Source: Candidatus Thorarchaeota archaeon
GTDB lineage: Archaea; Asgardarchaeota; Thorarchaeia; Thorarchaeales; Thorarchaeaceae
DNA: 38,537 nt
Assembly: GCA_019057475.1 (NCBI GenBank)
Contig: DXJO01000020.1
Location: 138,875-177,411 of the forward strand
Direction: 5' to 3'
The translations under genes and the position numbers were made by a program. The notes beneath the pieces were generated by a model. That model saw only the letters and a list, made by a program, of their open reading frames with translations. It did not search any database and was not told where the DNA came from. Shown piece by piece: positions 26,014 through 35,150 of the stretch (positions are counted from its first letter, which is position 1; the number at the start of each line of letters is the position of its first letter).

Positions 26014-26033
26014 TGCAACCTACGTAGTCAACA

Positions 26034-26516
26034 TTAGAGAACCCAGCCCCAAAAGGTGACTATGAACATGGCTTCGCCCGGGAAGTAAACTAGTGCTCCA
26101 AATGGCACTCTAACAACGTTCTTAGGCACATCAACTACTGGAATTGTTGACCCGAGATAATCATATGGTTCCTCAGGTCCTCCAAGACGATCTGTCACTA
26201 AATCTATTGCATAGTCATTAGTCATCCAGGGTGACCATGCAAGAAAACCAAGAATTACTAAAATCAATACAATCTTTGATTTGTGTGACCTCACAAAACT
26301 GGTTCCCGACCTTAGATGTGGCTTCTGCGAATAGAGAACGAGTACCACACCAAGAGGCATAAAGAGTAGCATGAACCAGCCCAACATAATAAACACAATA
26401 CCTATCCATAGAAGTCTTCTCCCCCCAAGCCGCACCAAACCCGGTCTTGATTCAGCTGCCGGAAGGCGACAAACTCTCTTAATCACATTGAATTCATCTA
26501 GTTGTTCTATTTCCAT
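26034..26516 (-). CDS. Small membrane protein, unknown; second gene of a regulator module
   Basis: A 160-residue protein with a hydrophobic stretch at about residues 35-63 (one long or two short helices), another at about 80-97, and a hydrophobic C-terminus (VTFWGWVL). The segment between (about 100-140) is polar. There is no signal peptide and no recognised domain. It overlaps the upstream HTH gene by 10 nt, so it is co-translated with it. A regulator followed by a membrane protein suggests a membrane stress or signal module, but that is inference. Confidence 0.7.
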   Translation of the reverse strand: MEIEQLDEFNVIKRVCRLPAAESRPGLVRLGGRRLLWIGIVFIMLGWFMLLFMPLGVVLVLYSQKPHLRSGTSFVRSHKSKIVLILVILGFLAWSPWMTNDYAIDLVTDRLGGPEEPYDYLGSTIPVVDVPKNVVRVPFGALVYFPGEAMFIVTFWGWVL

Positions 26517-26974
26517 TGCAATTGCCTCATTATCAATTTGAAAAGTTTCTCACCAAGTCGAGTAGGTGCCAAGTCTTTCGGCAGAGGAATCTCCCATTCT
26601 TCTGCTAAGTTCCGAAGCACTTCGTCGCAATTTTCCATCATGTCACAGCTATCACAATCACCCCTGTGTGAAAACCAAACTTGGACTCCCATCTTATGAG
26701 AGTAGGTGATGTATGTTAAGGAATCATGAGCGTGACAATAACCCACCGCAAAACCGTATTCTGGGCTCATGTTTTGGAGAACAATGCGGCTCACTTTTGC
26801 TGTATGTCTAAGAAGACTCTCAATTCGCTCTTCCGCTATTCTCTGCGCTTGACTCACATATGGTCTTGAAACCGCTAATTCCTTGGCGATGTCCGACGGC
26901 AGATTATTCTGCCTTCTTCTCAGCCAGATAGTACTCTGTTGCTTTGTTGGATAGCGAATTCCGATGGACATCAT
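26507..26974 (-). CDS. Helix-turn-helix DNA-binding protein with a cysteine cluster
   Basis: A 155-residue protein. Residues about 10-50 (NNLPSDIAKELAVSRPYVSQ) form a helix-turn-helix of the sigma/Trp-repressor-like kind seen in archaeal regulators. The C-terminal part has YCHAHDS (about 79-85) and CDSCDMMENC (C107, C110, C116), likely a metal or redox site. It starts at ATG 26974, and its promoter has a TATA box framed by two 21-bp direct repeats (26993-27055), so autoregulation is likely. I do not recognise a named family; the cysteine cluster suggests a metal- or redox-responsive repressor. Confidence 0.75.
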   Translation of the reverse strand: MMSIGIRYPTKQQSTIWLRRRQNNLPSDIAKELAVSRPYVSQAQRIAEERIESLLRHTAKVSRIVLQNMSPEYGFAVGYCHAHDSLTYITYSHKMGVQVWFSHRGDCDSCDMMENCDEVLRNLAEEWEIPLPKDLAPTRLGEKLFKLIMRQLQWK

Positions 26975-26992
26975 TGATCCCCGCGAGTAGCA

Positions 26993-27055
26993 GTTAACTG
27001 ATTTCGTGCAACTCCGGACAGCTCACTCATATAAATTAACCGATTTCATGCAACT
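26993..27055 (-). promoter_or_regulatory. Promoter with two 21-bp direct-repeat operators flanking a TATA box
   Basis: GTTAACTGATTTCGTGCAAC plus T (26993-27013) and ATTAACCGATTTCATGCAAC plus T (27035-27055) match at 18 of 21 positions and are spaced 42 bp start to start. The TATA box ATTTATATG (minus strand, about 27028-27036) lies between them, and the downstream repeat covers the expected transcript start. This is the layout of an autoregulated archaeal promoter. Confidence 0.65.
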
Positions 27056-27076
27056 ATCTAATGAAATTCATTTTAA

Positions 27077-27120: not shown

Positions 27121-27257
27121 CGACAAGACGAAAGCCGGCAATACCGCAATCCCTATAAACCAAGAGAAGCGAACGACCGTTCCGTGGGCCAGTGGCTACC
27201 CAGGGAGAGTTCATAGACTTCAACTGGATAGAGATGAAGGGGAGTTTGGGCCAAGCT

Positions 27258-30200
27258 TTAGTAATCCCTGAAGAATATCACTCCCTCTTTCAAAAGGATG
27301 TTCTTAACTTCCTCAATGACCCTTTCAATGGTTTCATCATCAATACTATACTGCTCAAGCTTTTCTCCAACCTCTCGTTCTATGAGATCAGGGTCTACCC
27401 CACCTGCCATCTCTGTCCAACCCTGATAGGTGTGTATCCACTGTGTAACTTGAATAGAAACATACTCGCTCTCTTCGGCGACGAAGTTCGCAACTATCAC
27501 CTGTCCTCCAGCCGCATCCCTTGTTATATCCACTGATTCAAATTGTAGTCCTGCAATTTCCTTCTCTTGGATAAGAGAGAGATGGTCTTCAATCTCTTTG
27601 TCGACCAACTGTTTCATTATTTTGCTATCAGAGAACCCTCCTTGATCCAGTACTTCCTCCATTCCTTCCTTCAAGAGTGAAGATAGATGTTCTCTCTCTA
27701 GCATCTCAACTTTGGGCACAATAACTATGTGGACCATCTTTTGAAGAGTAAGCTCAGATACAAGTCTAAATTCAACTCGATCTTCGAATCTCTTTATCTC
27801 AGGACTCCAACCATCAAGGAGGTAGATTCCTGGGTATATTGCTCTCTCCTTTCTCCAACGCATAACGTGTATAGATTCTCTGAACTCCCTAGGCAAGTCT
27901 TTGGACTCTGGAATCCGAATATCATACCACATCCATTGGCCGTCATAAGCACGATAGGAAATCGCACCTGTTTCAAGAAACGCTGCAAGAGCTGGACCGG
28001 TGAACTTGATCTGTTCTAGTTCTCTGATCTCTTCAGGAACCTTATCATCGGAGTAGAAAGTTATTCTCCAACAAGCGCCATGTCTGTATATTGACTCGTT
28101 GAATAATGGCTCCGGTTGTCCAGGGTGACCGTCTACATCTTGCAGGTATTCAATAACCCTCTTGGTTGCCTTGGAGTGTTTTGTTATGCTCTCAAGATTC
28201 TGACTTCTCAGTGGACAAATATGATAATCATGACTGATTTTAATTCTCTGAACAACACCTTTACTGAAACTAAGGAATGCTTCAGCCGTAGGTGGAAGTG
28301 ATACTGATTCAATCTTGAAAGGGTCACTCCTAAGGACGAAAGGTCGTAGGATTTTCACATCCTCATCAAATTCGATATCATCAAACCTGTTCCACACATA
28401 GTGGTTTTCATCTATGACAACTGGCTCGCATGAAAAATCAGGCCGTCGTAAGATCTCAAGTACATCCACAGTTCTTTTGATTAGTAACTGTCCAATCTCA
28501 TCCTCACTCCCATGATTTAGTAATGAAATCCTGAACATTTGCGCTTCATGGTCTAAGTACACATGACACTTAACAGATATACAATCTCGGAACACAGCTG
28601 AAATGAGACCGAGACCTACTTTGATATAATCTGCAAGATTCCTTGGTGGCGCCCTGATATTGTTTCCAGCTACCCCTAGAAGAGTTGAGTCATCTCTCAG
28701 AGTCATCGACATGAGGAGTGTGACAGTTTCGCGTCTTCGTCTGTAATACTCGATTCTCCCCACTGGCAACCAATTCGAAGTCTTTCCATTGTAAACCCAG
28801 AGACCTTGAATCCCCCTTTGAGTGGCAACCATAATGTCTATTCCCTGTTCAGGGTCCACTCGTTCTGACAATTCCCTGAGTAAAGTCAGATCGCTTGTTC
28901 CCCAGAAGGGTTTGTTTCTGCAGAATCCTTTCAAAACATCAAGAATCAAACCCTCTTTCCCAGAGGGACGTCTAAGGTAAATCATACTCATTTCATGACT
29001 GCCTAGATTTGTCTGAAAGGTCAAAAAGAGCTGCTGTGGACTATCACTATTATTCCTCTCTACAAAACATGCTCGACCAAAGAGAACATCACTTACTTGC
29101 TCTCCTCTCAGGATTTTCTTCAGACCTTTAGCTCTCTCTCTTAACCGATCGATAAGTTTTGTTCTATGGAGAAACGACTCTCCAGTATTATGTTGAGAGT
29201 GGTATTCTGGACTGAAGCCCACACCTATCAACTGAAAGGGTACGAGATAGTTCCAGAGCTTTTCTATCAGACTTCTAGGTGAATCGAGAGTTCCTGATTC
29301 ATAGAGTGATATCAGGAGAAGAAGGAAGAGATGGTTGCCAACTATTAGTAACAGGTCTGGGTCTTTAGCAAGAAGTTTCTTCAGTTCTATCTTCTGATTC
29401 TCTAAGAGGCCATCTGAAATCCATGAACGTTGTTTCTTCAAGGCCATCCAAATTTCCTTACTCAAATCATGAGTTTCGAGGAATACACGGATTGTTCTTA
29501 GAACGTTAAACACATCACTCTGCAAATACCCATCAACTAATTTCCCATCAACAAGTCTGTCCAGAGATTCAAGAAACTCTTTCCATTCTTTTTTATCACC
29601 ATGTCGTTTCGCAATTGTTTTAGCTATGCGTCTTATCCCACTAAGCTCTTTTCTAACCAGAGTCAATCTATTGGAACCGTAAAATTTCAGTAGACCAATA
29701 TGTGGTGGTCGTGTGGTTTTCCTTGGAGGGGTTCTGTGCAAACGAGTTACCCTGTACTCTCTTGTATGGTTTATCATTTCCAACGGTTCAAGCTTTTTCA
29801 CTCGACCATCTGCATCAACAGAGGTCTGATGCTGATATGGCTCGAAGACAACCCTCGAAAGGAGTGACGGTGGATTAGAACTAACACCGGAGGGTTCTTT
29901 CTTCTGAATCAAGAATTGGCTCTCTTCTTCGGAATCTGCCTTCTGATAGAATCTGCTGAGATGTGGAACCAGCTCAAGCACATCATTATTATCATCCTCA
30001 CAATAGTTTCTAAGATAGCCCTTTCTTATGGAAGAATAATTGGACCTAAGATAGAACACTTGTTGCTTGTCTATATTCTTCTCCCGATTATTATCAGGTC
30101 TAAACTTTTCTCCCCATTGGTACAATGGTGTAATCAAAACAGGGTCAATGCTGAAATCATTCTTTCTCTCAGTCACAACCCATCTGACATCATCATCTAC

Positions 30201-32657
30201 AGGAACATAGGATCCATATCTCCTCGGAGCCATAGGCAAGTTGTAGACAATCTCATTAATTACCTGCATCCATGGACTGCTTGGATAAAAGGGGGCGACA
30301 CATCGAGTATCATACTTCTGACTCGTCTGACTCAGCGGTACAGGTCTATCGAACCAGAGTACTGTTAAACGACGAGGCATCTTCTCGATAAACCAAAGTA
30401 AAAACTCATCAAGAAAAGATTTCTTTTGTTTTGAGGTACTTCTTCTAACTTTATCCAAACCTGTAACAACAATGAATGGTCTTCTCTTATTCCTGAGGCT
30501 CACACTCAGTTCTCTGCCAATAGTTTCAAGAGTATCCCTTTCATTTACATATGATGAAAGAGGTTCTGACATATCAACGAAGGTTATCTTCTTCCTCAAT
30601 AGCCTCCGAATGCTTTTCGAATGAAGACTGGCTCGGAGGTTTTGTTCTCTCAAGCCAGGACTCTTGAATTCGCCTGCAAAGTCAAACCACACAATATCCC
30701 TATGCTTTCCTCTCACTCGTTCATGGATATATTTCAGTCCATGCCAATTGGCAGCTATCTCTGCCGCAGACTGAGAAGGAGATCCTTTCCCTGACACTGT
30801 GAGGTACAGAATAAACTCTCTGTCATCATCACGAAATCTTGAATACTGGAAAGGATTGAACTCTTGGATGTTAGCAGTTGGAATTGTATTTCTATTCTCA
30901 CAGTCACTATATACTACAAGTCCCATTCTGAAACTCTTATCCCCCAATGTAGGATAGAAGAGCTGCCCCTTCGAAAATGCATCATCTTGTGAGTTACTGT
31001 ACGCTTTGAGAATCAGATTTCTGATGTTACTCCTTAGGGTTTCCCAATTCTCCTTTAAATCAACAACGAGCACTCCTTTCATCAGCCTTTCAGGAGGACT
31101 GACATCACTCCGTACGTATTTCCTATAACTAGAGAGTATGACTTTCTCATATGCATCAAGCTGCTTCCTTCCATAGACAGTTGGAGTTGAGTCGATGACA
31201 TCTTGCCACTCCATATCCTCTGACTTTCTCCTATCCATGATTGGTTCAACAACTCTTCTGTTCAGGTCCTTTGACTTTGTAGATGTTGCATACAGGTCAA
31301 GTTTGTAGAAACACTTGGTCTTGACTTCGATGAGAATACACGGTTCCCAGATAGTAACTGGACTTGACTCATCAGCTCTCTCCAAATTCTTTCTTCGAAA
31401 AACGAGAATATCGACCCGTCCTCTGCCATCAGCCACAGTAACCTCGCAGGTAAACAAGAAATCAGTTTCTTCTGTGACCATTTCGTCACCATGCCTGATT
31501 GAGCCAAAAAGTGAAAATGGCTGAACTGAGAAGTTTGAGTTGGCAATGAAATCATGAAAAGCAGAGCCCATCATCCGACTGCTTTCGAGCAGGCTCTTCA
31601 TTGCATGCTCTGCATCAGCTCGAGTCAGTATCCCATTCTTAACTAGGGACATCACCTTTTCCACATGAACCCTCCACTCCGGATGAAGGTCCAAGTCACA
31701 CCGTTCTGTTACATCTGAGAAGAAAGTGTCCAGCTCATCCTCACTCACATCTTCAGGGTCGGAGGCATCTACTTCTCTTGGCTCATCATCCATGATTGCT
31801 TCTAATTGGTCTGGCTCATTGGCAATTAGTGATTCTGCTATTGCGTGATCCTCTGTTCTTGCATCCATCAAATGACTTGAAATTTCCCCGGTAATCGATG
31901 GAGGTCGACCGTTCACACCACCATACACCGCTCGGATCTCATGAACAATTTCTCGAAGCTCTCTTACCCCTTTATGGATGAATCCCTTCTCTCCCCTCTT
32001 CCTCTCAGTGTAAACATATTCGAGATAGGGCACGAGTCGCTCGATGAGACCGTCAAGGTATCGTTTTGCATCCCTTATGGGGACTGAATATTTCATGCAT
32101 TGTCTAGCAAGCTCGATACCATGACTTCTGATCATATCCACGAAATCGAGCTCCGGAGTAGTATGAGTTGGGATATACTTTGGAATCCGAGCACTTCCTG
32201 GATAGATTCGTTTCACACTCTTAGCTTTGGTGATTATCCGCACTGGTGTTGGGAATGGAAACCCTGATGCTCCAAGGTTTCTGATTCTTGCACCGTAATA
32301 GTCAGCGAGGATATTGATGTATTTTCGATCCTCTTTCCGTCTTCTTCTCTTCTCCTCAACATTCCCGTAAGGAACAGATGTATTCAGTACAATCTTGTTG
32401 TGGTTGCGACGGATGTTATTCTCCACACGCTGAAGGTGCCTTGCGTCTGGTCTTCTCTCCTTTACGGATCTCTGATAGTCTAGGAGGGCATCCTTCAGAA
32501 TCTTCCTGATTCCCTTTCGACCCTTTCCTCCCCAGTAGAGGTGTTTTGTAGTTTTTGTTACCCTTCCTCTAGCTAGATATGCCGTTGCTGTTAGACCAGA
32601 TTGCAGCGCTTTAGTGAGAACCTTCCCAGGGTTTTTTGGGAAACCTGCGTTTTTCAT
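27258..32657 (-). CDS. Giant protein (1799 residues) with RecB-type PD-(D/E)XK nuclease and degenerate NTPase-like region
   Basis: Residues 1-150 are very basic. A RecB/Cas4-type nuclease core follows with every expected motif: GSAFHDF (G364, H368), GRVDILVF (D416), ILIEVKTK (E444, K446) and KQLDAYEKVIL (Q499, Y503). Residues about 612-775 look like a P-loop NTPase that has lost its consensus: YLTVSGKGSPSQS where Walker A should be, DIVWFDFAGEF, FIVVTGLDKV (Walker B-like) and LTVLWFDRP. Residues about 850-1799 match nothing I recognise. The start ATG lies about 30 nt after TATA (32682-32692), so the mRNA is nearly leaderless. It is divergent from the TnpB/Cas12-like gene. The nuclease call is solid by motif; the NTPase and the defence role are inference. 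Confidence 0.85.
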   Translation of the reverse strand: MKNAGFPKNPGKVLTKALQSGLTATAYLARGRVTKTTKHLYWGGKGRKGIRKILKDALLDYQRSVKERRPDARHLQRVENNIRRNHNKIVLNTSVPYGNVEEKRRRRKEDRKYINILADYYGARIRNLGASGFPFPTPVRIITKAKSVKRIYPGSARIPKYIPTHTTPELDFVDMIRSHGIELARQCMKYSVPIRDAKRYLDGLIERLVPYLEYVYTERKRGEKGFIHKGVRELREIVHEIRAVYGGVNGRPPSITGEISSHLMDARTEDHAIAESLIANEPDQLEAIMDDEPREVDASDPEDVSEDELDTFFSDVTERCDLDLHPEWRVHVEKVMSLVKNGILTRADAEHAMKSLLESSRMMGSAFHDFIANSNFSVQPFSLFGSIRHGDEMVTEETDFLFTCEVTVADGRGRVDILVFRRKNLERADESSPVTIWEPCILIEVKTKCFYKLDLYATSTKSKDLNRRVVEPIMDRRKSEDMEWQDVIDSTPTVYGRKQLDAYEKVILSSYRKYVRSDVSPPERLMKGVLVVDLKENWETLRSNIRNLILKAYSNSQDDAFSKGQLFYPTLGDKSFRMGLVVYSDCENRNTIPTANIQEFNPFQYSRFRDDDREFILYLTVSGKGSPSQSAAEIAANWHGLKYIHERVRGKHRDIVWFDFAGEFKSPGLREQNLRASLHSKSIRRLLRKKITFVDMSEPLSSYVNERDTLETIGRELSVSLRNKRRPFIVVTGLDKVRRSTSKQKKSFLDEFLLWFIEKMPRRLTVLWFDRPVPLSQTSQKYDTRCVAPFYPSSPWMQVINEIVYNLPMAPRRYGSYVPVDDDVRWVVTERKNDFSIDPVLITPLYQWGEKFRPDNNREKNIDKQQVFYLRSNYSSIRKGYLRNYCEDDNNDVLELVPHLSRFYQKADSEEESQFLIQKKEPSGVSSNPPSLLSRVVFEPYQHQTSVDADGRVKKLEPLEMINHTREYRVTRLHRTPPRKTTRPPHIGLLKFYGSNRLTLVRKELSGIRRIAKTIAKRHGDKKEWKEFLESLDRLVDGKLVDGYLQSDVFNVLRTIRVFLETHDLSKEIWMALKKQRSWISDGLLENQKIELKKLLAKDPDLLLIVGNHLFLLLLISLYESGTLDSPRSLIEKLWNYLVPFQLIGVGFSPEYHSQHNTGESFLHRTKLIDRLRERAKGLKKILRGEQVSDVLFGRACFVERNNSDSPQQLFLTFQTNLGSHEMSMIYLRRPSGKEGLILDVLKGFCRNKPFWGTSDLTLLRELSERVDPEQGIDIMVATQRGIQGLWVYNGKTSNWLPVGRIEYYRRRRETVTLLMSMTLRDDSTLLGVAGNNIRAPPRNLADYIKVGLGLISAVFRDCISVKCHVYLDHEAQMFRISLLNHGSEDEIGQLLIKRTVDVLEILRRPDFSCEPVVIDENHYVWNRFDDIEFDEDVKILRPFVLRSDPFKIESVSLPPTAEAFLSFSKGVVQRIKISHDYHICPLRSQNLESITKHSKATKRVIEYLQDVDGHPGQPEPLFNESIYRHGACWRITFYSDDKVPEEIRELEQIKFTGPALAAFLETGAISYRAYDGQWMWYDIRIPESKDLPREFRESIHVMRWRKERAIYPGIYLLDGWSPEIKRFEDRVEFRLVSELTLQKMVHIVIVPKVEMLEREHLSSLLKEGMEEVLDQGGFSDSKIMKQLVDKEIEDHLSLIQEKEIAGLQFESVDITRDAAGGQVIVANFVAEESEYVSIQVTQWIHTYQGWTEMAGGVDPDLIEREVGEKLEQYSIDDETIERVIEEVKNILLKEGVIFFRDY

Positions 32658-32681
32658 TATAACAATGGTTTTATCATTACC

Positions 32682-32692
32682 TTATATATATT
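32682..32692 (-). promoter_or_regulatory. TATA box of the giant nuclease gene
   Basis: ATATATATAAG on the minus strand, centred about 30 nt upstream of the ATG at 32657. The predicted transcript start is at about 32660, giving a leaderless or nearly leaderless mRNA. Confidence 0.55.
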
Positions 32693-32710
32693 CATTTTAT
32701 TGAGTATTGT

Positions 32711-32745
32711 CCATTATCTATTCTCCCATTTATCGCAGATAATGG
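32711..32745. promoter_or_regulatory. 9-bp inverted repeat between the divergent nuclease genes
   Basis: CCATTATCT (32711-32719) and AGATAATGG (32737-32745) form a perfect inverted repeat with a 17-bp spacer. It is upstream of both genes, so it could be a shared operator or the left palindromic end of a transposable unit. Confidence 0.5.
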
Positions 32746-32791
32746 CCGGTATCATAGATTTCCAGCGTTTCCATTTTCTAGTCTTGGTAAA

Positions 32792-32831
32792 TTTAAATAT
32801 ATTATGAGAATATAATATTCTGTGGAATATT
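32792..32831 (+). promoter_or_regulatory. Promoter and 7-bp inverted repeat of the TnpB/Cas12-like gene
   Basis: TATA-like TTTAAATATATTATG starts at 32792. AATATTC (32814-32820) and GAATATT (32825-32831) form a perfect inverted repeat with loop TGTG at the expected transcript start. GGTGG precedes the ATG at 32846. Confidence 0.5.
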
Positions 32832-32845
32832 GAGAGTGGTGGCCG

Positions 32846-34993
32846 ATGATTAAGCAACAAAAAGCCCGGCGTCGTCCCCGGGAGCAAACGCAGTCTATGA
32901 CTGAAGAGCAACATACAATGGATGACAAATTTAAATATCCATCATCGGGAACGCCAAAAACGGGGCTAAGATATCTCACCGAGTCATTCACTCTCAATTC
33001 AGTAGAACGAATTGTGCAGAAACAAGGGAAAGGAAGAAAGCCTAAACCTATGTTTGGCACAGTTGATGGCATTCAGAAAGGAATTGAAAAGACCACAGGT
33101 CGAAAGGTCAAAGATGTTGATGTTCTTCTTCTTGGAGAGCGTTTCGCAGTCTATGTCAAACTCGTGAATATGGTCCTTGAGCGGGTCTATGTATCTGATG
33201 ATAGAGCTGAATCAGTTGGCAGACAATTGTCCGAGCATCGAGGAAAGGGATATAGCTTCCTGAAGAATTTGAAGTACCTCAGGTACAGGGACAATGAAGA
33301 GATTAAGACCATTTGCTTTGAGAGGATGTATCGAAACGCCTTGGAACAGGCAGCAAGAATCATCCTGTCCGACTGGAAACGACGACAGCTAATGACTACT
33401 GCTCTGTCTGTTCTATATAGGGATGAAGAACTACTCCTGAAGCTTCTGAAGAACAAATACATCTCTTCTTTGCTGGTAAAAACAATCCGAAAGGAATGTG
33501 AAATAGTCAAGTCCAACGGGAAGAGTTACTACTATGTAGTTTCAGTCCTGAAGCAGCTTCGCCGCATATTGGATGAGAAGATACTCACAGAACGAGGAGA
33601 ACCTCCTCGATTCAGGAAGAGTCAGCGAGTGCGAGTAAAGAAGTTTCTTGGAGAGGACTTAGACTCAATCATGGCTATAGTCCGGCCAACAGTGACTCAA
33701 TGGTATAGAGATGGGTATCCTTTCTCTGTTCCAAAGATGTTCTCGTTCTCAGAGGACTTTTCAGCTGGATCTGAGAGCAATATCGGACAGGGTTACTGGT
33801 ATAGTGTTGACAGGAGTCCAGATCGCGAGAACGAGATACTGTTCTTTCTTAAGCTTCCTGAACCTCTTAATGGCGTGGAGCACAATGATTCTCCTTATCG
33901 CACAAAGACCTTGAGTTTTCGGTTCCTTGATTGGCTTCCTCGTGCGGCACAAAAGGATTCGAAGAAAGCTAACAGAGCCGAGAGAGATGGACATTACCAA
34001 CGAGCAAAACAACTTCGATTTCGAGCTGCAAAGTTCAATGACATGCATCAACAACTAATGAACACTATCGAATGCCAACACACCGCCTATCAACTCAAGC
34101 GACTCAAAGGTAGAAAGAACGTAGACACCGAGAAGATCATACGACTGGAAGCCCGATTGACAGAATTGAATAGTTCCAGGAAATGCAAACCTCCACAGCT
34201 CGTGCTTCGCGAACACAAAGTCACCCTATATCTTCCGTTCCTACCACCTACTTACAAGGTAATAGAAACGACTCTTGGCAAGAAGAAGTATCATCGACGA
34301 GCAGGTGCTGATAGGGGTCTCCGTGTCCCCATTGCGGTATCTGTTCAGAAGGATGGCAGATACGTCGATAAACTCATTGAGATGAATGAGCTCCTGAAGA
34401 AGCGCATGCGGTTGCATGAGGACACAAAGTGGTTGCAGTCTGAGATAACAAGAACGCAGAACAATTGGGAAAGGAAGCATCCGGATTCATCCTATCCCTC
34501 TCACATCCTCAAGAAGCGACGACATCATGATGCGATATGGGGAAGAATACGAAGGATTGATAGAGAGATTGCCCGTCAAGTCGCGTCAAGATTGGTCTGG
34601 TTCTGTGAGGAACATGAGGTCAAGACAATTGTCTTCGAGAATCTGAAGAACTATTCTGCTCCGTCTGGCTTCAAAAACCTCTCTTGGAATCTTACCGCTA
34701 ACCTCTTTTCAAAAGTGTTTGAAACTGTTCGTTACATGCGTCGGAGCATGGGTCATAATTATGGCGGTGTATGGACAGTCAGTCCTGCATGGACATCTCA
34801 GACCTGCCATCAGTGTGGTGAGATTGGTATCCGAGTTGCGAATGAAATCTCAACTTCCGAAATGAAAAGAGGTGAGTTCTTCTACTGCGTAGAGTGTAAC
34901 GAGCATTTCCATGCTGATATCAATGCTTCACGAAACATAATTCATGTTCAGCAAAAGAAAATGTCCAGTGCCGTTCCTGGACGGTCAGCTTGA
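32846..34993 (+). CDS. Large TnpB/Cas12-like RuvC nuclease
   Basis: A 715-residue protein. The C-terminal third is a complete RuvC domain: RRAGADRGLRVPIAV (D489), VKTIVFENLKNY (E598), a zinc ribbon CHQC...CVEC (C654, C657, C681, C684) and HADINASRNI (D691). This is the RNA-guided nuclease core shared by IS200/IS605 TnpB and type V Cas12. The N-terminal ~480 residues are basic and unrecognised. At 715 residues it is clearly longer than usual TnpB (about 350-500) and in the Cas12 range. No TnpA (Y1 or serine recombinase) and no CRISPR array are nearby. Intact catalysis is predicted. The 3' end has tandem hairpins that may form a guide-RNA scaffold. Confidence 0.9.
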   Translation: MIKQQKARRRPREQTQSMTEEQHTMDDKFKYPSSGTPKTGLRYLTESFTLNSVERIVQKQGKGRKPKPMFGTVDGIQKGIEKTTGRKVKDVDVLLLGERFAVYVKLVNMVLERVYVSDDRAESVGRQLSEHRGKGYSFLKNLKYLRYRDNEEIKTICFERMYRNALEQAARIILSDWKRRQLMTTALSVLYRDEELLLKLLKNKYISSLLVKTIRKECEIVKSNGKSYYYVVSVLKQLRRILDEKILTERGEPPRFRKSQRVRVKKFLGEDLDSIMAIVRPTVTQWYRDGYPFSVPKMFSFSEDFSAGSESNIGQGYWYSVDRSPDRENEILFFLKLPEPLNGVEHNDSPYRTKTLSFRFLDWLPRAAQKDSKKANRAERDGHYQRAKQLRFRAAKFNDMHQQLMNTIECQHTAYQLKRLKGRKNVDTEKIIRLEARLTELNSSRKCKPPQLVLREHKVTLYLPFLPPTYKVIETTLGKKKYHRRAGADRGLRVPIAVSVQKDGRYVDKLIEMNELLKKRMRLHEDTKWLQSEITRTQNNWERKHPDSSYPSHILKKRRHHDAIWGRIRRIDREIARQVASRLVWFCEEHEVKTIVFENLKNYSAPSGFKNLSWNLTANLFSKVFETVRYMRRSMGHNYGGVWTVSPAWTSQTCHQCGEIGIRVANEISTSEMKRGEFFYCVECNEHFHADINASRNIIHVQQKKMSSAVPGRSA

Positions 34994-35006
34994 CTTTCAT
35001 GTCAAG
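34963..35006 (+). other. Tandem hairpins at the 3' end of the TnpB/Cas12-like gene
   Basis: Hairpin 1: GTCCAG (34963-34968), 8-nt loop, CTGGAC (34977-34982). Hairpin 2: CTTGAC (34989-34994), loop TTTCAT, GTCAAG (35001-35006), which contains the stop codon. TnpB elements end in RNA-forming sequences (omegaRNA) and hairpins, so this is a candidate guide-scaffold or element end. No guide segment can be assigned. Confidence 0.45.
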
Positions 35007-35073
35007 ATGTTCCATCTAACAATGATCGGTTAGTGGCTTAGCAGGATGGTTCGGTTCATTCAAAAGAATAAGG

Positions 35074-35150
35074 TGGCGGGCCGGGCGGGATTCGAACCCG
35101 CGGCCAACAAGTTAAGAGCCTGTCGCTCTACCGGGCTGAGCCACCGGCCC
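35074..35150 (-). tRNA. tRNA-Lys(CTT)
   Basis: Read on the minus strand from 35150 it folds as a full cloverleaf: acceptor GGGCCGG/CCGGCCC, D arm GCTC/GAGC, anticodon stem ACAGG/CTTGT with loop CTCTTAA (anticodon CTT, lysine codon AAG), T arm GCGGG-TTCGAAT-CCCGC, discriminator G. CCA is encoded (35074-35076). There is no intron. The 3' end points towards the nuclease island, the side where integrases usually act. Confidence 0.95.

Follow-up and report, generated by a model that had tools for sequence, protein, structure and literature searches.

The window analysed here is a 38,537-nucleotide stretch of contig DXJO01000020.1 from a Candidatus Thorarchaeota archaeon (assembly GCA_019057475.1). 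It contains a head-to-head pair of genes, one encoding a protein of 1799 residues (hereafter, the giant) and the other a TnpB-like RuvC nuclease of 715 residues. The mobility of copies of this pair demonstrates that it is the core of a mobile element, a transposon. An earlier interpretation made from these letters alone (the sequence-only reading) had proposed a two-component module in which RNA-guided RuvC cleavage cooperates with a second nuclease/NTPase. Comparison of homologous sequences indicates that the pair is a genuine conserved module, beyond chance; however, it is not free-standing but a transposon core, to which relatives of the window's own type (type 1, below) add an IS607 transposase as a third gene. 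The account preferred here, held at a little under even confidence, is of a transposon family that is confined to Asgard archaea and belongs to the IS607 lineage, in which the giant nuclease would process DNA ends at breaks made by TnpB or the transposase. The libraries and literature searched gave no description of this pairing under any name, most subscription papers and bioRxiv preprints lying outside that literature, which agrees with the earlier statement that no such system was known. The features of the window are these:

27187–27197, + strand: left copy of the 11-bp target duplication, GGCCAGTGGCT, which is the 5' end of a split tRNA-Lys gene (from empty sites L072 and L073 and filled site L074)
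27198–35027, no strand: whole inserted element of 7830 bp, left to right end (from the same empty sites, the right-end motif AACAATGATC followed by GG, and ortholog L074)
27258–32657, - strand: giant gene, 1799 amino acids, a new family (open reading frame; 22-member alignment; without a Pfam, NCBIfam or PADLOC family)
30108–30935, - strand: RecA-like fold of the giant without Walker A, residues about 575–850 (Foldseek; motif scan)
30978–31625, - strand: RecB/Cas4-type PD-(D/E)XK nuclease domain of the giant, residues 345–560 (invariant residues; secondary structure of the model)
32658–32845, no strand: divergent intergenic region between giant and tnpB, 188 bp (open reading frames; gap size conserved across copies)
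32846–34993, + strand: tnpB, 715 amino acids, type 1 with canonical RuvC-II Glu, and zinc ribbon (open reading frame; Pfam, NCBIfam and PDB profile matches; alignment)
34894–35027, + strand: putative omegaRNA 3' scaffold overlapping the 3' end of tnpB (hairpin GTCCAG-N8-CTGGAC at 34963–34982; compensatory changes)
35028–35038, + strand: right copy of the duplication, decayed to GGTTAGTGGCT (still GGCCAGTGGCT in the G006 ortholog)

Conservation of the gene pair

Both open reading frames, and the 188-bp gap from which they are transcribed head to head, were exactly as the sequence-only reading had given them. Where at least 1.2 kb of upstream DNA was readable, 54 of 55 distinct giants had a divergent TnpB as neighbour, mostly across a gap of 110–360 bp. 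This answered the question of co-occurrence that the earlier reading had raised, and contradicts its proviso that homologues of the two proteins might usually be found apart. The sole exception was L191 (9030–14101, G010:C189), a giant that lacks TnpB and has an IS607 TnpA immediately upstream in the same orientation. Giants were found in 30 of the 47 genomes of the window's Thorarchaeota family and in three genomes of one other family, from 228 genomes of the phylum searched; copy numbers are lower bounds, at most four candidates per genome having been scored and nearly all genomes being metagenome bins. Two loci came from a bin labelled Heimdallarchaeota. No giant was found in viral contigs, on which ground a viral origin was ruled out. 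By this distribution of homologous sequences, the giant family is Asgard-specific.

The TnpB partners form two lineages, type 1 (approximately 715 amino acids) and type 2 (approximately 550–640 amino acids), which separate cleanly among complete sequences. Type 1 possesses the canonical RuvC-II Glu; in type 2 this is missing (mostly Gly), and an invariant Glu occurs instead within ExxxxxxCxxC. The presence of this alternative Glu in all complete type-2 sequences ruled out the idea that they are nuclease-dead, and this 'Ealt' arrangement, with a repositioned RuvC-II Glu, is the one reported in Fanzor-like TnpB (PMC10711439). In a tree built from 50 giants, well-supported branches forced at least seven changes of partner type, with the position of the partner always the same; the switches at L085/L114, L089/L110 and between the L029 clade and the window clade rest on complete TnpBs, and the partner-type labels of L022, L023 and L113 on partial ones. 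Since the pairing persists through repeated swaps of TnpB, the giant and TnpB probably work together on DNA breaks. The exchange of TnpB lineages next to a retained giant suggests that the latter relies on the generic product of TnpB, that is, a guided break, rather than on a close fit between the proteins.

Mobility and joints of the element

The window's element was delimited by comparison with empty sites in G002 (L072) and G003 (L073), where the left flank runs through GGGCCAGTGGCTTAGCC into an uninterrupted tRNA-Lys-like gene. In the window the order is GGGCCAGTGGCT, element, GGTTAGTGGCT, and at the right side of the filled ortholog of G006 (L074) GGCCAGTGGCTTAGCC has been preserved, giving a target duplication of 11 bp. 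The window's copy has kept the giant and tnpB and has no tnpA, which is likewise absent from L039, L040 and L043.

The full order among type-1 relatives is left end, tnpA (rightward), giant (leftward), tnpB (rightward), guide-RNA scaffold and right end, joined at GG. Their TnpA is a serine enzyme of the IS607 family, convergent with the giant, which scored 177–190 bits against NF033518 (cutoff 110) and matched the solved ISC1926/ISC1904 TnpA. The gene was intact or nearly so in L010/L037, L086, L118, L190 and L192, frameshifted in L028, and reduced to a remnant in L022, L034, L089 and L194. The right joint was GG, the reported IS607 target (PMC6188088), in the window, L028, L034, L039, L040, L043, L086, L089, L118 and L192, and was not GG in L031, L035 and L114. 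In its working the element resembles a TnpB-bearing IS607 element, from which type-1 members descend.

Movement was visible at L028, in the window's own genome, and L039, in G005: these insertions occupy a single syntenic region, separated by 980 bp, and in each genome the site of the other's insertion is empty. Their target duplications are of 13 bp in L028 (GGTTCCGTAACTG), the true length being uncertain because part of this stretch resembles the left-end consensus of related copies, and of 9 bp in L039 (GGTTTTGGC). No duplication was found in the tnpA-bearing L086, L118 and L192, and L028, with its broken tnpA, does carry one. Longer apparent duplications at L038 (18 bp), L120 (16 bp) and L107 (17 bp) were not counted, their flanks being paralogous, tRNA or neighbouring-element sequence. 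At L107 and L120 a second right-end-like sequence stands beside the left border, which suggests that elements entered this site more than once, in tandem or nested.

Other insertions removed target sequence. Short, dispersed elements of approximately 0.6–0.8 kb share both ends with the type-2 elements, and in G004 a short form shares its right flank with the full L029 element. The short-element insertion at L158/L167 lost 26 bp compared with empty sites in G000, G002, G003 and G005, and that at L166 lost 38 bp compared with empty sites in G000 and G002; the L029 insertion lost about 18 bp compared with the empty site in G001. Reduced copies also occur: L189 has kept tnpA and the start of tnpB, with the giant reduced to its two ends, and there are copies with TnpB only. 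Of all the findings, a variable left joint together with a GG right joint is explained least well.

One explanation, improbable in our estimation, is that in tnpA-less copies the giant is itself the insertion enzyme, its cut setting the left joint with the right fixed at GG, and TnpB making the other, guided cut. This would be consistent with right joints constant at GG beside left joints that vary between 13 bp duplicated and 38 bp deleted, with the absence of tnpA from the window, L039/L040 and all type-2 copies, and with the lack of a Y1 transposase in the window's genome. However, L028 combines a tnpA, albeit frameshifted, with a duplication, TnpA could be supplied in trans, and the giant has no recognisable transposase domain. 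A related proposal, to which a similarly small chance is given, would make the giant and any compatible TnpB a new machine for DNA insertion or copying with no need of TnpA, the giant making the second cut and steering repair. Such a machine would explain the GG-fixed right joints, the left offsets, the loss of tnpA and the free exchange of TnpB.

Several loci are recorded here as separate observations. At L147 (8479–8491 and 10571–10583, G015:C24) a TnpB-only copy at the 3' end of a tRNA is bordered by a 12-bp repeat, only suggestive of a target duplication, in a genome where no giant was found. At L034 (5600–5670 and 13834–13900), approximately 60 bp of the right flank recur at the left border with about 80% identity, as if the gene that received the element had been given back its 3' end by it. 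The window's own genome also holds, at L188 (3883–7393, G000:C19), a divergent recombinase of IS607 type with 35% identity to the element TnpA, which adjoins an unrelated-looking open reading frame of 707 amino acids. The tRNA-Lys gene split by the window's element apparently contains an intron, is intact in G002 (L072, from 1789) and G003 (L073), and is not recognised by ARAGORN. An intron-less tRNA-Lys(CTT) lies on the opposite strand at 35074–35150, 47 bp past the right end in G000; G001 and G006 (L074, 5416–5492) have it in the corresponding place, as if it were a replacement for the broken gene; it was ruled out as part of the element, since no tRNA stood beside the 20 other loci first compared.

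The giant protein

The claim of a complete RecB-type motif set in the giant held. Residues E405, D416, K446 (within [E/D]xK), Q499 and Y503, which correspond to the motif set of RecB, AddB and Cas4, were invariant across 22 relatives with identities down to approximately 22%, and a regular expression for the set matched 52 of 54 distinct giants. In the model of residues 1–900 (pLDDT 81.7), the catalytic residues occupied strands and a helix in the core order of RecB/Cas4 PD-(D/E)XK nucleases, and residues of approximately 610–860 resembled KaiC, RAD51 paralogues and T7 gp4 (best E = 5.7e-5), as well as phage DnaB/RecA-like proteins. The C-terminal half (pLDDT 79.6) had no significant fold match; a transposase concealed there was considered, and the only RNase-H-like Foldseek matches were insignificant (best E = 0.14) and were not used. 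A motif scan found no Walker A P-loop in the RecA-like region of 54 giants, and the label 'NTPase' is therefore unsupported.

Neither Pfam, NCBIfam nor PADLOC yielded a significant match to the giant, which speaks against the case, named as refuting in the sequence-only reading, of a known restriction or housekeeping family. By sequence it had no PDB relative; nor did profiles of the nuclease region alone or the RecA-like region alone find one. It ranges across the family from about 1400 to 1945 amino acids and is under purifying selection (dN/dS 0.17–0.28).

These data bear on the view, considered rather unlikely, that the giant is cargo of an ordinary TnpB-bearing IS607-type element with a purpose of its own, such as protecting its host, or the element itself, from phages or competing elements. 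RecB-type giant nucleases are common in defence systems, and TnpB-only copies, the giant-deleted L189 and the mini-elements also count in favour of this view. Against this stand the strict head-to-head position maintained through at least seven TnpB switches, the strict confinement of the giant to these elements, and the failure of any PADLOC defence model to match it, on which last ground a defence system was also rejected as an identification.

TnpB and its putative guide RNA

The window's TnpB matched Pfam Cas12f1-like_TNB (E = 1e-11) and, by profile, solved TnpB/Cas12f structures (E = 2.3e-6); its best NCBIfam match was guided_TnpB. As the sequence-only reading had asserted, the D-E-D triad and zinc ribbon are complete: RuvC-I D489, RuvC-II E598, RuvC-III D691 and the four zinc-ribbon cysteines (CxxC/CxxC) were invariant in 10 relatives. 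The gene is under purifying selection (dN/dS 0.14–0.24).

Covarying helices occur at the 3' ends of both tnpB types and extend up to the element end. In type 1 the outer pairs of the hairpin GTCCAG-CTGGAC vary with compensation, and in type 2, 8 of 14 pairs had double-sided changes and 96.6% of cells were paired, compared with 38–52% in slid controls. With its intact triad and these covarying RNA helices, the window's TnpB bears the hallmarks of an RNA-guided nuclease and is apparently functional, and the RNA-like region fits a putative omegaRNA with the right flank as guide. The short elements L152–L172, present in many copies per genome, retain the left and right ends and, between them, the RNA-like region, made up of the final ~255 nt of type-2 tnpB and a further ~109 nt; they are possible stand-alone guide-RNA elements.

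PADLOC models for Cas12u3 and Cas12f matched TnpB, which might indicate a type V CRISPR effector and make the pair a CRISPR-type defence module. Such matches are expected because Cas12f and TnpB are relatives, and this interpretation is very improbable given that guided_TnpB was the best NCBIfam match, that the window held no CRISPR-like repeat array and no Rfam RNA except tRNA, and that the copies are dispersed and mobile, their RNA-like region stopping at the end of the element.

Proposed mechanism

In the preferred account of an IS607-lineage transposon with an end-processing nuclease, TnpB, guided by sequence adjoining the right end, would cut copies of the target that are free of the element. 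The giant would then trim or nick the resulting ends with its RecB-type nuclease, or make a second cut, while holding DNA by its RecA-like, probably non-ATPase domain, and repair would copy or seal the element. Either TnpB lineage could serve because the partner need supply just the guided cut. Several points weigh against this account. All type-2 copies lack tnpA. The existence of TnpB-only copies means that an element can persist without a giant. The left joint varies, from duplications of 9–13 bp to deletions of 18–38 bp, while the right joint is at GG; IS607 TnpA is reported to insert without duplications, and IS607 transposases are not known to produce such variable left joints. Finally, that the giant and TnpB act on the same DNA is inferred, and the activities ascribed to both are predicted.

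Cas12 descends from TnpB, to which Fanzor is also related, and the genomic partners best known for TnpB are small transposases. In these elements, a single unrelated giant nuclease of Asgard archaea has repeatedly gained a TnpB neighbour from two lineages, one of which has a rearranged active site like that discussed for Fanzor relatives. Should the giant act on breaks made by TnpB, this would be a natural case of an RNA-guided cut coupled to a dedicated end-processing enzyme, and such coupling would help to explain how TnpB elements copy themselves.

Outside the element, a separate insertion at 26014–27072 adjoins SHMT, with small open reading frames at 26034–26516 and 26507–26974 that belong to no family; it is present in G003 and not in G002.

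Comparison with known systems

The giant shares with RecB/AddB/Cas4-type nucleases the motif set E-D-[ED]xK-QxxxY in the expected order. Unlike them, it has no identified helicase motifs or iron-sulphur cluster cysteines, and it is a protein of no known family whose nuclease stands beside a RecA-like fold without Walker A. The type-2 TnpBs share the repositioned RuvC-II glutamate (ExxxxxxCxxC) of Fanzor-like TnpBs or 'pro-Fanzors'; however, their RuvC-I motif is DLG rather than DPG, they are archaeal and paired with a giant, and the window's own TnpB is of the canonical type.

Aloposons of Heimdallarchaeum comprise tandem proteins of 3000–6000 amino acids and four more genes, including a MinD/ParA ATPase, with no TnpB mentioned (PMC8813620). 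Both are Asgard mobile elements with giant genes, of which some copies lie in tRNA genes, but the present elements have two or three genes with a single giant of at most 1945 amino acids, and identity with aloposons was rejected on the architecture as described (PMC8813620).

Elements of the IS200/IS605 group (Y1 TnpA plus TnpB) resemble these in having a TnpB with a 3' guide-RNA scaffold, and subterminal palindromes occur in the type-2 and mini-elements. However, type-1 elements have target duplications, and no PF01797 match, that is, no Y1 HUH transposase, was found in the window's genome, where control genomes were positive; an IS200/IS605 origin, hinted at by the palindromes of the mini-elements, was ruled out by this absence.

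The closest resemblance is to IS607. Type-1 relatives encode its serine TnpA, with an N-terminal MerR-like helix-turn-helix, beside TnpB; the right joint is mostly GG, targets are GG or GGG, short direct-repeat motifs lie near both ends, and there is an RNA-like scaffold at the 3' end of tnpB. These elements differ from IS607 in possessing a giant gene (about 1400–1945 amino acids) divergent from tnpB, in having tnpA at the far end, convergent with the giant and often lost, and in showing left-joint duplications or target deletions rather than a simple GG exchange.

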